From: Gammaproteobacteria bacterium
Lineage (GTDB): Bacteria; Pseudomonadota; Gammaproteobacteria; JADZEE01
Assembly (NCBI GenBank): GCA_020850735.1
Contig: JADZEE010000009.1
Location: 1-64,000 of the forward strand
Length of the DNA: 64,000 bases
Direction of reading: 5' to 3'
Shown here: positions 7,651-62,198 of the stretch, one piece after another
Position numbering within the stretch: the stretch's first letter is position 1
How the letters are laid out: each line of letters opens with the position of its first letter
Program-made: the position numbers and the translations under genes
Notes under the pieces: model-generated
Database searches by the model: none
Told to the model about the DNA's origin: nothing
The model's input: only the letters and a program-made list of their open reading frames with translations

Positions 7651-8298
7651 GTGGACCCGCTCGAAACACTCGCCCTCGTCATGGGTGTCGCCTGGGCCAG
7701 CGGCATCAACCTGTACGCAGCCGTGCTGATGCTCGGGCTGATGAACGCCACTGGCAACGTCGTACTGCCCGAAGACCTGCAGGTGCTGTCGCATCCGGCC
7801 GTACTCGCCGCCGCCGCGATCATGTACTGCGTCGAATTCTTTGCCGACAAGGCGCCGGGGGTCGACAGCGCCTGGGACGCGGTGCATACCTTCATACGAA
7901 TTCCCGCCGGCGCCGTGCTCGCCGCCGCTGCCGTCGGCGAGGTCGATCCCGGTGTGCAGTTCGCAGCGTTCCTGGTCGGCGGCTCCCTGGCCGCCACGAG
8001 CCACGTCACCAAGGCGGGCGGCCGCGTGCTGATCAACACCTCGCCCGAGCCGATCAGCAACTGGCTCGCCTCGCTCGGCGAGGACGCGCTGGTGCTCACC
8101 GGGCTGTGGACGGCACTGGCACACCCGTGGGTCTTCCTGGCATTGCTCATCGTGTTCATCGTGCTGGTCGCCTGGTTGCTGCCGAGAATATGGCGGGCGA
8201 TCAGATTGATCGCTGCCCGTGTCCGCACCTGGTTCGGCCCGCGCGCACACTCGCCCGCAGACGCATCGCGGACGTCGCAGTCCGGAACGCCGACCTGA
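7651..8298 (+). CDS. DUF4126 family membrane protein
   Basis: A 215-aa multi-pass inner-membrane protein of unknown function. The conserved N-terminal segment with ASGINLYAAVLMLGLM is typical of the DUF4126 family. Further hydrophobic segments lie near residues 50-70, 88-103, 105-125 and 165-190, with a conserved loop FFADKAPGVDSAWDAVHTFIR and ATSHVTKAGGR between them. The C-terminal 20 residues are basic and disordered. GTG at 7651 is chosen because GGAG sits 8 bp upstream and the ATG at 7621 falls inside the predicted -10 box. It lies just before hemJ in the same direction (77 bp), so the two may be co-transcribed, but no functional link is known. Confidence 0.85.
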   Translation: MDPLETLALVMGVAWASGINLYAAVLMLGLMNATGNVVLPEDLQVLSHPAVLAAAAIMYCVEFFADKAPGVDSAWDAVHTFIRIPAGAVLAAAAVGEVDPGVQFAAFLVGGSLAATSHVTKAGGRVLINTSPEPISNWLASLGEDALVLTGLWTALAHPWVFLALLIVFIVLVAWLLPRIWRAIRLIAARVRTWFGPRAHSPADASRTSQSGTPT

Positions 8299-8374
8299 AC
8301 CGGCGCAGCGCACGGCGTGTGAGCTCCCGGGCAAGTGTCGCAGCGACTGCGTACTGCCGCGCGGGTATCACACC

Positions 8375-8797
8375 GTGCTGTGGGTGAAAGTCTTCCACAT
8401 CGTGTTCATGGTCACGTGGTTTGCGGGACTGTTCTATCTGCCACGGCTGTTCGTCTATCACGCCATGGCCGAGGACCGGCCGAGCATCGAACGGTTCAAG
8501 ACGATGGAACGCAAGCTCTACTACGGCATCATGACGCCGGGGGCGATCCTGACATTCGTGTTCGGGCTGTGGCTGCTCGGGCACGGCTGGGATCACCTGT
8601 CGCGGGCCGGGTGGGTACAGGTCAAGCTCGTCCTGGTCGCGGTGCTCGCCGCTTATCACGTCTACTGCGGCAGGCTGCTGCGCGACTTTCGCGACGACCG
8701 CAATCGCCACGGCCACGTGTTCTACCGCTGGTTCAACGAGATCCCGGTGCTGTTCCTGATCGCCATCGTCGCGCTCGCGGTCGTGCGGCCCTTCTGA
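8375..8797 (+). CDS. hemJ: Protoporphyrinogen IX oxidase, HemJ type
   Basis: Oxidises protoporphyrinogen IX to protoporphyrin IX in the inner membrane, the penultimate step of haem synthesis. The 140-aa product begins LWVKVFHIVFMVTWFAGLFY, containing the conserved histidine of helix 1 (FHIVF). It has four hydrophobic helices, a conserved lysine in GWVQVKLVLV, and ends RWFNEIPVLFLIAIV, as in HemJ/YggM proteins. GTG at 8375 gives the standard length; the 192-aa frame in the ORF track adds a basic, non-family extension overlapping the preceding gene. With hemL and hemB elsewhere in the window, it shows that this organism uses the HemJ variant rather than oxygen-dependent HemY, at least here. Confidence 0.93.
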   Translation: MLWVKVFHIVFMVTWFAGLFYLPRLFVYHAMAEDRPSIERFKTMERKLYYGIMTPGAILTFVFGLWLLGHGWDHLSRAGWVQVKLVLVAVLAAYHVYCGRLLRDFRDDRNRHGHVFYRWFNEIPVLFLIAIVALAVVRPF

Positions 8798-8878
8798 CCG
8801 GGCCACGCCAGCGCGACGGTGTCTCCCGGCCCGTCTCCGGCGCGGCCGCGCAGTCGGCGCATGCGGGCGCTCAGCGCG

Positions 8879-9036
8879 TGTGAGACATTCGCCCGCCGTC
8901 GCGAGATGGTTTCCGGGCGTTCCCGGCCAGGCGCGGGGATGAACAACATCGCGCGCAGCGGGCCTGTGGAAACGAATTCGGGAGTCCCCGCAATGCGACC
9001 AGGGGCGGTCGCGACAGGCGCGGTGATGGTTTCACA
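8879..9036. repeat. Dispersed short repeat, copy 1 (TIR-bounded, structured)
   Basis: This 158-bp segment begins TGTGAGAC and ends GTTTCACA, and is closely similar to 60771-60941. By hand alignment the first roughly 79 bp differ at 8 positions, and the second half differs by a few indels and substitutions. It contains CGCCCG-CCGTC-GCGA-GATGG-TTTC-CGGGCG, a hairpin with a GNRA-type GCGA loop, and a second hairpin GCGACC-N6-GGTCGC. It fills the space between the convergent genes hemJ (+) and rubredoxin (-), ending 6 bp from the rubredoxin stop. No credible ORF is present. It could be a small non-autonomous mobile element, a 3'-UTR/terminator element or a structured RNA. Confidence 0.85.
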
Positions 9037-9042
9037 TGGCTC

Positions 9043-9207
9043 TCAGATCTCGATCATCTCGAAATCTTCCTTGCGCGCCCCGCAGTTGGGGCAGGTCCAA
9101 TTCGGCGGCACATCCTCCCAGCGTGTGCCCGGCGCGATGCCGTCCTCGGAACAGCCTCTGGCCTCGTCGTAGACGAACCCGCAGATGACGCACATATAGG
9201 TTTTCAT
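9043..9207 (-). CDS. rubA: Rubredoxin
   Basis: A 54-aa electron carrier with one Fe(Cys)4 centre. The two cysteine pairs are present as [11 protein letters not shown] near residues 5-15 and TCPNCGARK near 38-46, with the aromatic PPNW segment between them. The start is the ATG at 9207 ([10 protein letters not shown]); the ORF track carries a 25-residue false extension. The gene is divergent from thiD across about 56 bp of A/T-rich DNA (atatatattat) and ends directly beside repeat copy 1. The redox partner is not visible in the window. Rubredoxin beside thiD or hemL is common in gammaproteobacteria, from general recollection. Confidence 0.96.
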
Positions 9208-59140: not shown

Positions 59141-60550
59141 CTAGACGCTGTAGTACATGTCGTACTCGACCGGGTGGGTGGTCATGCGGATGCGCGTGAC
59201 CTCGTCCATCTTCAGCTTGATGTAGGCGTCGATGAGGTCGTCGCTGAACACGCCGCCGGCCGTCAGGAAAGAACGGTCGCGGTCGAGGGCGTCGAGTGCC
59301 ATGTCGAGCGCGTGACACACGGTCGGGATCTGCTTCTCCTCCTCCGGCGGCAGGTCGTACAGGTCCTTGTCCGACGCCGGACCCGGATCGATTTTGTTCA
59401 AGATGCCGTCCAGTCCGGCCAGCATCATGGCCGCAAAGGTGAAGTACGGGTTGCCGGCGGCGTCCGGGAAGCGCACTTCGATGCGACGTGCCTTGGGGCT
59501 GGAGACCCAGGGAATGCGGATCGACGCGGAGCGGTTGCGGGCCGAGTAAGCAAGCATGACCGGTGCTTCGAAGCCGGGGACCAGGCGCTTGTAGCTGTTG
59601 GTGGAAGCGTTGGTGAACGCATTCAGGGCGCGGGCGTGCTTGAGAACGCCGCCGATATACCACAACGCAAGATCGGAAAGGCCGCCGTACTTGTCGCCGG
59701 CGAACAGGTTCTGGCCACCCTTGGCGAGCGACTGGTGTACGTGCATGCCGTTACCGTTGTCGCCGACCAGGGGTTTGGGCATGAACGTCGACGTCTTGCC
59801 GTAGGCGTGCGCGACGTTGTGCACACAGTACTTCAGGATCTGCAGTGAGTCGGCCCTCTTGACGAGGGTGTCGAATCTGGTGCCGATCTCGCACTGCCCG
59901 GCGGTGGCCACCTCGTGGTGATGCACCTCGCACTCCAGGCCCATCTTTTCCATGGTGAGCACCATCGCCGAGCGCAGATCCTGCAGCGAATCGACCGGCG
60001 GCACCGGAAAGTAACCGCCCTTGACGTTCGGCCGGTGGCCGATGTTGCCATCCTCGTAGGCGCGCTCGGACGACCAGTCCGCTTCCTCGGATTCGATCTC
60101 GTAGAAGCAGCCCTTGATGTCGGCGCCCCAGCGCACGCTGTCGAACACGAAAAACTCCGGTTCGGGACCGAAGTAGGCCGTATCGGCGATGCCGGTCGAT
60201 TTCAGGTAGACCTCCGCCCGTTTGGCGAGGGAACGCGGGTCACGCTCGTAGCCCTGCCCCGTCAACGGTTCGAGCACGTCGCAGCGCACGATCAGCGTCG
60301 GCTCCTCGAAGAAGGGGTCCAGGACCGCCGTGTCGGCCTCCGGCATGAGGACCATGTCGGACTCGTTGATCCCCTTCCAGCCGGCGATCGAAGAGCCGTC
60401 GAACATCTTGCCCTCCTCGAAGAAGGACGCATCGACCGCGCGCACGGGCAGCGTGAGGTGCTGCTCCTTGCCGCGCGTATCGGTGAAGCGAAGGTCGACG
60501 AACTTGATGCCTTCGTCCTTGATTCGCTTGAGAACGTCGTCAGCGGACAT
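59141..60550 (-). CDS. glnA: Glutamine synthetase, type I
   Basis: ATP-dependent ammonia assimilation; 469 aa, GSI-beta. Conserved blocks include [67 protein letters not shown] and the adenylylation tyrosine in DLYDLPPEE, so GlnE-type control is expected. The ATG at 60550 has GGAGGAG upstream; the ORF track adds 21 residues. The upstream DNA shows a sigma-54-like promoter and a likely NtrC site. Confidence 0.98.
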
Positions 60551-60760: not shown

Positions 60761-60770
60761 GCTCAGATCT
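60761..60770 (+). repeat. Left flanking 10-bp direct repeat of repeat copy 2
   Basis: GCTCAGATCT, directly abutting the left terminal TGTGAAAC of repeat copy 2 and repeated at 60943-60952 just beyond its right end. Could be a target-site duplication; see the corresponding finding for the caveat about copy 1. Confidence 0.7.
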
Positions 60771-60941
60771 TGTGAAACATTCGCCCGCCGTCGCGAGACG
60801 GCTTCCGGGCGTTCCTGGCCAGGCCCGGGGGTGCACAATATCGCGCGCATAGCGGGCCCTACGGAAACGATCTTGGGGGTCCCCGCAACGCCGCCAGGGG
60901 CGTCCAGGAGCCGTCGCAGCAGGCGCGGTGATGGTTTCACA
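60771..60941. repeat. Dispersed short repeat, copy 2 (TIR-bounded, structured)
   Basis: 171 bp from TGTGAAAC to GTTTCACA, perfect 8-bp inverted ends (9 bp if the outer T/A is counted), closely similar to 8879-9036. The first part folds as CGCCCG-CCGTC-GCGA-GACGG-CTTC-CGGGCG, and a second hairpin is ACGCC-N6-GGCGT. It lies between the regulatory region of glnA and the 3' end of lysA, 3 bp from the lysA stop codon. ORFs within it do not hold up across the two copies because of indels. Confidence 0.88.
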
Positions 60942-60942
60942 A

Positions 60943-60952
60943 GCTCAGATCT
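60943..60952 (+). repeat. Right flanking 10-bp direct repeat of repeat copy 2
   Basis: Second GCTCAGATCT. It includes the lysA stop codon (TGA on the minus strand at 60947-60945) and its last coding bases, so the element sits exactly at the end of the gene. Confidence 0.7.
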
Positions 60953-62198
60953 GCGGCAGCACCGATTCACCGGCATACAGCGCCTCGAGCCGCTCACGCG
61001 GCCTTACCACGTGCCAGGATTCGCCGCGGATCATGACCTCCGGCGGACGCGGCCGGGCATTGTAGCTGGAACTCATCGCAAACCCGTAAGCGCCGGCCGT
61101 GCACACCGCCAGCACGTCTCCCGGTACCAGCACGAGCTCGCGTTCACGGCCGATGAAGTCGCCGCTCTCGCACACCGGCCCGACGACGTCCCAGCGACCA
61201 CGGGTCCCGGCGTGCCGTCGCTGCAGCGGGACGATGTCGTGCCAGGCGTCGTAGAGCGCCGGACGCAGGAGATCATTCATCGCAGCATCGACGATGGCGA
61301 AGCCGCGCTCGGCGCCGTCCTTGAGGTATTCCACCCGCGTGAGCAGCACGCCGGCCTCGGCGACCAGCGCACGCCCGGGCTCGACCACGATTTCCAGGGT
61401 CTCGTCCGCGAAAGCGTTGCGCACGACCTCGGCATAGGCGCCGATCGCCGGCGGCGACTCGTCCTTGTAGCGCACCCCGACTCCGCCACCGACGTCGACG
61501 TGCTCGATCCCGATACCGCCGGCGCGCAGCGCCGCGACCAGCGCGGCAACCCGGCCGAATGCGTCCCGGAACGGCTCGAGCCCGGTCAGCTGCGAGCCGA
61601 TGTGGCAGGCAACGCCCCGGACGTCCAGGTGTCCGGACGCGGCCGCACGCGCGTACAGGGCCGGCGCAGACTCGATCGGTACGCCGAACTTGTTCTCGCG
61701 CAGGCCCGTGGCGATGTAGGGATGCGTGTTCGCATCGACGTCGGGGTTGACGCGGATGGCGATCGGCGCGCGCACGCCGAGCTCTGCGGCGATCGATTCG
61801 ATGCGCTCGAGCTCGGCGGCCGACTCGACGTTGAAGCAGCGCACACCGGCCCGCAGTGCCCGGTCGATCTCGTCGGCACGCTTGCCGACGCCGGCGAAAA
61901 CGCAGCGATCGGCGCGCCCCCCGGCGGCGAGCACGCGCTCGAGCTCGCCTGCGGAAACGATGTCAAAACCCGCGCCGGCGCCGGCGAGCAGATTCAGAAC
62001 CGCGAGATTGCCGTTCGCCTTGACCGCGTAGCACACGCGGTGCGGGCGGCCCGCAAACGCCGCGGCGAAGGCCTGGTAGCGCGCCAGGATGGCGGCGCTG
62101 GAGTAAACGTAGCAAGGCGTGCCCACGGCCCGAGCGACATCAGCCAGCGCGACCCCTTCAGCGAAGAGCCGGTCGTCGCGGTACCCGAATTCGGACAT
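60945..62198 (-). CDS. lysA: Diaminopimelate decarboxylase
   Basis: PLP enzyme that makes lysine from meso-DAP. 417 aa; PLP lysine in VCYAVKANGNLAVL, GELERVL, HVDVGGGVGVRY and the substrate block CESGDFIGRERE near 335-345. C-terminal EALYAGESVLPQI. Its start overlaps the lptM stop by one base (TGATG), and the two are conserved neighbours. Its stop is at the edge of repeat copy 2. Confidence 0.97.
   Translation of the reverse strand: MSEFGYRDDRLFAEGVALADVARAVGTPCYVYSSAAILARYQAFAAAFAGRPHRVCYAVKANGNLAVLNLLAGAGAGFDIVSAGELERVLAAGGRADRCVFAGVGKRADEIDRALRAGVRCFNVESAAELERIESIAAELGVRAPIAIRVNPDVDANTHPYIATGLRENKFGVPIESAPALYARAAASGHLDVRGVACHIGSQLTGLEPFRDAFGRVAALVAALRAGGIGIEHVDVGGGVGVRYKDESPPAIGAYAEVVRNAFADETLEIVVEPGRALVAEAGVLLTRVEYLKDGAERGFAIVDAAMNDLLRPALYDAWHDIVPLQRRHAGTRGRWDVVGPVCESGDFIGRERELVLVPGDVLAVCTAGAYGFAMSSSYNARPRPPEVMIRGESWHVVRPRERLEALYAGESVLPQI

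Follow-up and report, generated by a model that had tools for sequence, protein, structure and literature searches.

A dispersed hairpin repeat abutting stop codons, probably a non-autonomous mobile element, in a gammaproteobacterial genome

A short, non-coding repeat that occurs twice in the window (the whole stretch of DNA analysed, 64,000 nucleotides) was found to belong to a family of about 90 dispersed copies in its genome; the whole element is predicted to fold into one long hairpin, and most copies abut the stop codon of an unrelated gene. We regard it as a MITE/REP-like mobile element, palindromic and non-autonomous, that a putative enzyme would move in trans and direct to a CTNAG-like target, a reading to which we give a probability of about 0.55. 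Palindromic repeats are common in bacteria, and whether their fold benefits the host or their own spread is mostly unclear; here the two can be separated, since base pairing persists from lineage to lineage but is lost among the copies of a single genome.

Copy 1 lies at 8870-9046 (minus strand, the direction of the neighbouring gene that runs into the element; 66 bits with the core covariance model) and copy 2 at 60762-60948 (minus strand; 113 bits), and both the profile and the core model detected only these two in the window. The original prediction had placed the repeat at 8879-9036 and 60771-60941; the repeat is real, but its limits had been drawn too narrowly, as the conserved sequence reaches sharp CTCAG borders on both sides of the element, about 4-10 bp beyond the ends first noted. 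The TGTGARAC and GTTTCACA ends described at that time are present in both copies, in the same orientation, and the hand count of differences and indels came near the computed alignment (85% identity over 174 aligned bases, with gaps of 3, 10, and 3 bp in the second half). The indels between the copies disrupt every reading frame, as had been claimed. Copy 1 follows a rubredoxin gene (9043-9207, minus strand; Pfam PF00301, E 3e-21; translation ending MIEI-stop), whose TGA stop (9043-9045) lies inside the CTCAG border, and on its far side, 72 bp apart, there is a convergent gene for a UPF0093/CopD-like membrane protein (8219-8797, plus strand, start codon approximate; PF03653, E 4.8e-48). Copy 2 follows a lysA-like decarboxylase gene (60945-62198, minus strand; PF02784, E 8.5e-67, and PF00278; translation ending LPQI-stop), the TGA stop of which (60945-60947) is also inside the CTCAG border, and the next gene downstream, in tandem, encodes glutamine synthetase (59141-60550, minus strand; PF00120, E 5e-134). 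A 9-bp direct repeat, AGATCTGAG, borders copy 2 at the lysA end and at the far end of the element; it was rejected as a longer target duplication and looks coincidental, since the other short-gap copies compared lack it. At its beginning, the window also contains a partial bacterial 16S rRNA gene truncated by the contig start (1-441, minus strand; Rfam RF00177, 413 bits).

The source genome (G000; 5.0 Mb in 170 contigs, 95% complete and 5.9% contaminated) holds many further copies, as had been expected. The genome-wide search proposed with the original prediction, run with copy 2 as the query, returned 40 full-length matches (E 3e-90 to 1e-61) among 164 first-look candidates, and a 20-base left-end pattern allowing up to three mismatches was found at 97 sites vs. 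one for the reversed control. A profile search of the 488 kb surrounding the left-end and candidate sites yielded 86 near full-length copies of about 165-185 bp, together with fragments and several mini copies (53-66 bp) in which the two ends are joined directly. Divergence from the consensus ranged from 3 to 23% (median 6.7%), and the median identity of a copy to its nearest neighbour was 93%. The mini copies, which keep the ends alone, are located at C137:27241, C140:88510, C1:134797, C100:58466, C92:272009, and C26:12384; as four of them share a common internal junction, they have either spread independently or originated repeatedly between short GCCGT repeats. Solo gene-proximal ends of 30-70 bp, from which the rest of the element has been lost, were left at stop codons at C1:170724, C44:16299, C69:23008, C157:38375, and C78:15079.

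The first reading, made from the sequence alone, had missed the placement of the copies at stop codons, as well as the single whole-length hairpin and the existence of relatives whose core is conserved and whose arms have diverged. Read in the opposite sense to the one used there, the element has C-TGA-G-AGC as its left border, and this fixed end abuts the stop codon of an unrelated gene exactly (C-TGA-G) in 81 of 91 copies according to our home-made gene calls, which make the numbers for stop placement approximate. With a codon-usage model trained on high-GC3 ORFs, the border stop (TGA; TAA in two) ended an ORF with the codon usage of the genome in 83 of 100 copies. The orientation with respect to the gene was identical in full-length copies abutting a stop, and one mini copy was flipped. 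A targeting of stops beyond the CTGAG sequence was rejected, much of the placement being explained by the sequence itself: outside elements, 70 of 339 stops lie in CTGAG, more than in any other context, and there are 45 further non-coding CTGAG sites, so that around 61% of copies would be expected to abut a stop by site availability, vs. 81/91 observed (P 6e-6). The remaining excess may be due to selection, for instance against insertions in promoters. The next gene on the far side was in tandem in 61 cases and convergent in 29, near the average elsewhere in the same sequence (220:70).

Under the mobile-element reading, a trans-acting enzyme would recognize the folded element (cruciform or single-stranded) or its inverted ends and would use CTNAG-like sites for insertion (here CTGAG), with a probable duplication of 3-5 bp. 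In this GC-rich genome, CTGAG outside coding sequence is mostly C-TGA-G, the stop codon of a gene, so that insertion there would spare both the protein and its stop and the 3' untranslated region would then begin with the hairpin. Selection would purge insertions that hit genes or promoters, and landed copies would decay neutrally, the fold being kept by source elements only. Placement at stop codons would be the way in which a selfish element fills a gene-dense genome without breaking genes.

Among 369 genomes of the class, BLAST revealed two more carriers, G087 (four copies, 79-82%) and G333 (one copy, 72%), and a covariance model of the core, which had also been proposed, gave matches in 17. 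The apical-core pattern, searched in public genomes, added as carriers G369, MAGs titled Lamprocystis and Anaeromyxobacter (both with SulCav isolate names), a Deltaproteobacteria MAG, and HGW-Gammaproteobacteria-1 (HGW). Arms and ends differ from those of G000 (GGGCCCGCGCAA in G369 and GGGTTGTGAAC in Lamprocystis) and the fold is the same. The placement recurs in other gammaproteobacterial lineages, where each of the nine copies from G087, G333, HGW, and Lamprocystis lies against a stop codon (TGA, TAA, or TAG) with unchanged orientation; in G369, stop codons occur on either side of the element, as judged by ORF length only. Ten full copies of G369 are 97-99% identical, a degree of likeness that we read as a sign of recent movement, and many of its copies are at contig ends. 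The record title of this genome (L142 and further CAMASI contigs), Klebsiella pneumoniae MAG, is possibly a mislabel. No match to the element was obtained in phages, plasmids, or viral contigs.

To judge from the border sequences, insertion probably duplicates 3-5 bp of the target. CTGAG or TNA stands as a direct repeat at the two ends. Support for a duplication comes from the flipped mini copy, both sides of which read CTGAG instead of the CTCAG of the other copies, and from the internal copies of G369, six of seven of which (a 2.6-kb segment among the six) have the same flank centre base at either end. However, variants of the outer border bases on one side are not accompanied by variants on the other, and the Lamprocystis copies present TAA, TAG, and TAA on the near side and CTCTG on the far side; the duplication, contradicted or blurred by mutation at these places, is thus no more than likely. 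The MITE-like character put forward by the original prediction stands as regards the short non-coding sequence, the inverted ends, and the many dispersed copies, whereas the target duplication is only likely and a partner transposase putative. Neither an autonomous copy nor a partner transposase appeared among the matches listed for PF01609, PF13586, PF01797, and end pairs in these draft genomes. The Y1 and DDE_Tnp_1 genes found were rejected as partners because they lack the ends of the element, and a DDE_Tnp_1_2 gene was absent. Two ends lying 1.68 kb apart in C119, considered as an autonomous copy, proved to be decayed remnants around ordinary host genes, with no transposase. The 2.6-kb end-bounded segment of G369 (C109, 10783-13416; L204, 1284-3917) was also rejected as an autonomous unit, as it is formed by two inverted left half-elements and host-like genes with no transposase; by eye, it encloses genes for an NHL-repeat-like secreted protein and a lipoprotein-like protein, and either a composite mobile unit or an artefact of assembly is conceivable.

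The main rival to the proposed mechanism is a REP/REPIN-like element that a Y1 (HUH) transposase of the RAYT/TnpA-REP type would move in single-stranded form, with cleavage after CT, insertion 3' of the target, and no true duplication, the distal CTGAG then belonging to the element itself as its end; we consider this unlikely. TnpA-REP cleaves at CT (PMC8266576), which would fit CT^GAG and keeps such a mechanism in first place among the alternatives. It would also agree with the near-constant orientation of the copies, which counts against a symmetric transposon with terminal inverted repeats, with the lack of correlation between proximal and distal border variants, with the constancy of the distal CTCTG(A) against a variable proximal stop, and with the Y1 genes present in G000, G087, G333, G372, and G373. 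Nevertheless, the foot of the hairpin has no GTAG tag, none of the three Y1 genes in G000 has an element beside it, no Y1 gene was detected in G369, the carrier whose copies are most alike, or in G370 (both assemblies may be incomplete), and the flipped mini copy favours duplication. The element resembles REPs in being palindromic, intergenic, often near stop codons, and present in around a hundred copies, and an ORF flanking a GTAG REP can take its TAG stop from the repeat (PMC3733652). In contrast, REP units measure 20-40 bp and carry a GTAG or CGTC tag, whereas the element, one hairpin of 165-185 bp, is bordered by CTNAG, differs in its conserved core, and was not found beside a RAYT gene. 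The REP/BIME-like label given earlier fails in the strict sense, for want of the tag and of an element next to the Y1 genes examined.

Folding prediction for single copies gave -94 to -103 kcal/mol, the hairpin being imperfect and predicted in every lineage, in agreement with the original description of a dispersed, structured repeat bounded by inverted ends. Among the G000 copies, broken pairs amounted to 782 vs. 782.6 in shuffled controls; pairing is not maintained after insertion within this genome. In the alignment of the core (14 sequences from seven lineages), compensatory changes occurred at 26 of 34 pairs and 92.4% of cells were paired vs. 74.9% after shuffling, with far lower values in slid controls. 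The invariance of the core arises partly by construction, as the core served as the search pattern; the covarying helices lie outside that pattern. Kept between lineages but lost among G000 copies, the fold therefore seems to be needed for the spread of the source element and not for service to host genes. An RNA of the 3' untranslated region useful to the host (terminator, mRNA stabilizer, or processing site) and spread behind genes for that usefulness would account for copies lying mostly directly 3' of stops in one orientation and for the high stability of the fold and its compensatory changes from one lineage to another, and REP hairpins near stop codons can indeed affect translation and mRNA stability (PMC12306157). 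We find this improbable given the unmaintained pairing, the lack of a T-run 3' of the hairpin, the near-average arrangement of downstream genes (61:29 tandem to convergent vs. 220:70), and the decay of copies to fragments. A remnant of a larger segmental duplication, conceivable from a view of two copies alone, is ruled out because the flanks of the about 90 copies are unrelated except for a few gene paralogues; neither this nor a lack of further copies, the two outcomes that would have refuted the original prediction, holds.

No Rfam family matched the element above the gathering threshold, consistent with its not having been recognized as a named family at first, and an anti-hemB match in L233 was discarded as it is at a separate place. 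No published description of the repeat, its core sequence, or the CTNAG target was found among the open-access papers searched. MIRUs have DTGA target sites and a constant orientation. They carry a short ORF coupled to the start codon of the next gene, whereas the present element, its frames broken by indels, has no maintained ORF and forms one long hairpin after a stop codon. The likeness lies in the exact insertion of a short mobile repeat at gene boundaries, in MIRUs with little effect on genes (PMC12548453). ERIC, YPAL, and Correia/NEMIS elements are alike in size (100-170 bp), intergenic location, and long stem-loop transcripts, and are thought to be non-autonomous (PMC2229807). Most of them are A+T-rich with TA ends, and YPAL duplications range from 3 to 26 bp, in contrast with a GC-rich hairpin with CTNAG borders at stop codons. 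MITEs of the IS5 family, IS1031 group, show a 3-bp TNA duplication and GAGC-type ends, both of which would fit, but no PF13586 gene was present in G000 and no insertion sequence with the ends of the element was found. Integron attC core boxes read RYYYAAC and GTTRRRY, and an attC site was rejected, the ends of the element being GTGAAAC and GTTTCAC. Since the nearest known kinds (MIRU, REP/REPIN, ERIC, YPAL, and Correia) each differ in a defining feature, and no testable described family contains the element, we class it as a new family among the small palindromic mobile elements.

More tentatively, the family may be part of a new superfamily of fold-dependent elements, in which a long DNA or RNA hairpin with its conserved apical core would be recognized by a putative recombinase, arms, ends, and exact target (CTGAG, CTWAG) would drift between lineages by compensatory change, and the usual landing at stop codons would spare host genes. 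The conserved core with its drifting ends offers a handle for finding the moving enzyme. Weaker matches to the core model (E 1e-9 to 1e-3) resemble long hairpins with GCGTTGC...GCGCCTTG, a few of them beside stop codons, and are regarded as leads. Hairpins richer in AT, in which a similar core goes together with the apical motif CTCATGTACT...GTACACTCCGC, were observed at L234, L236, L250, L256, and L257 (G112 and G228) and are possibly a remote branch of the same superfamily; some of them lie directly 3' of stop codons, and some are followed by ordinary terminators.
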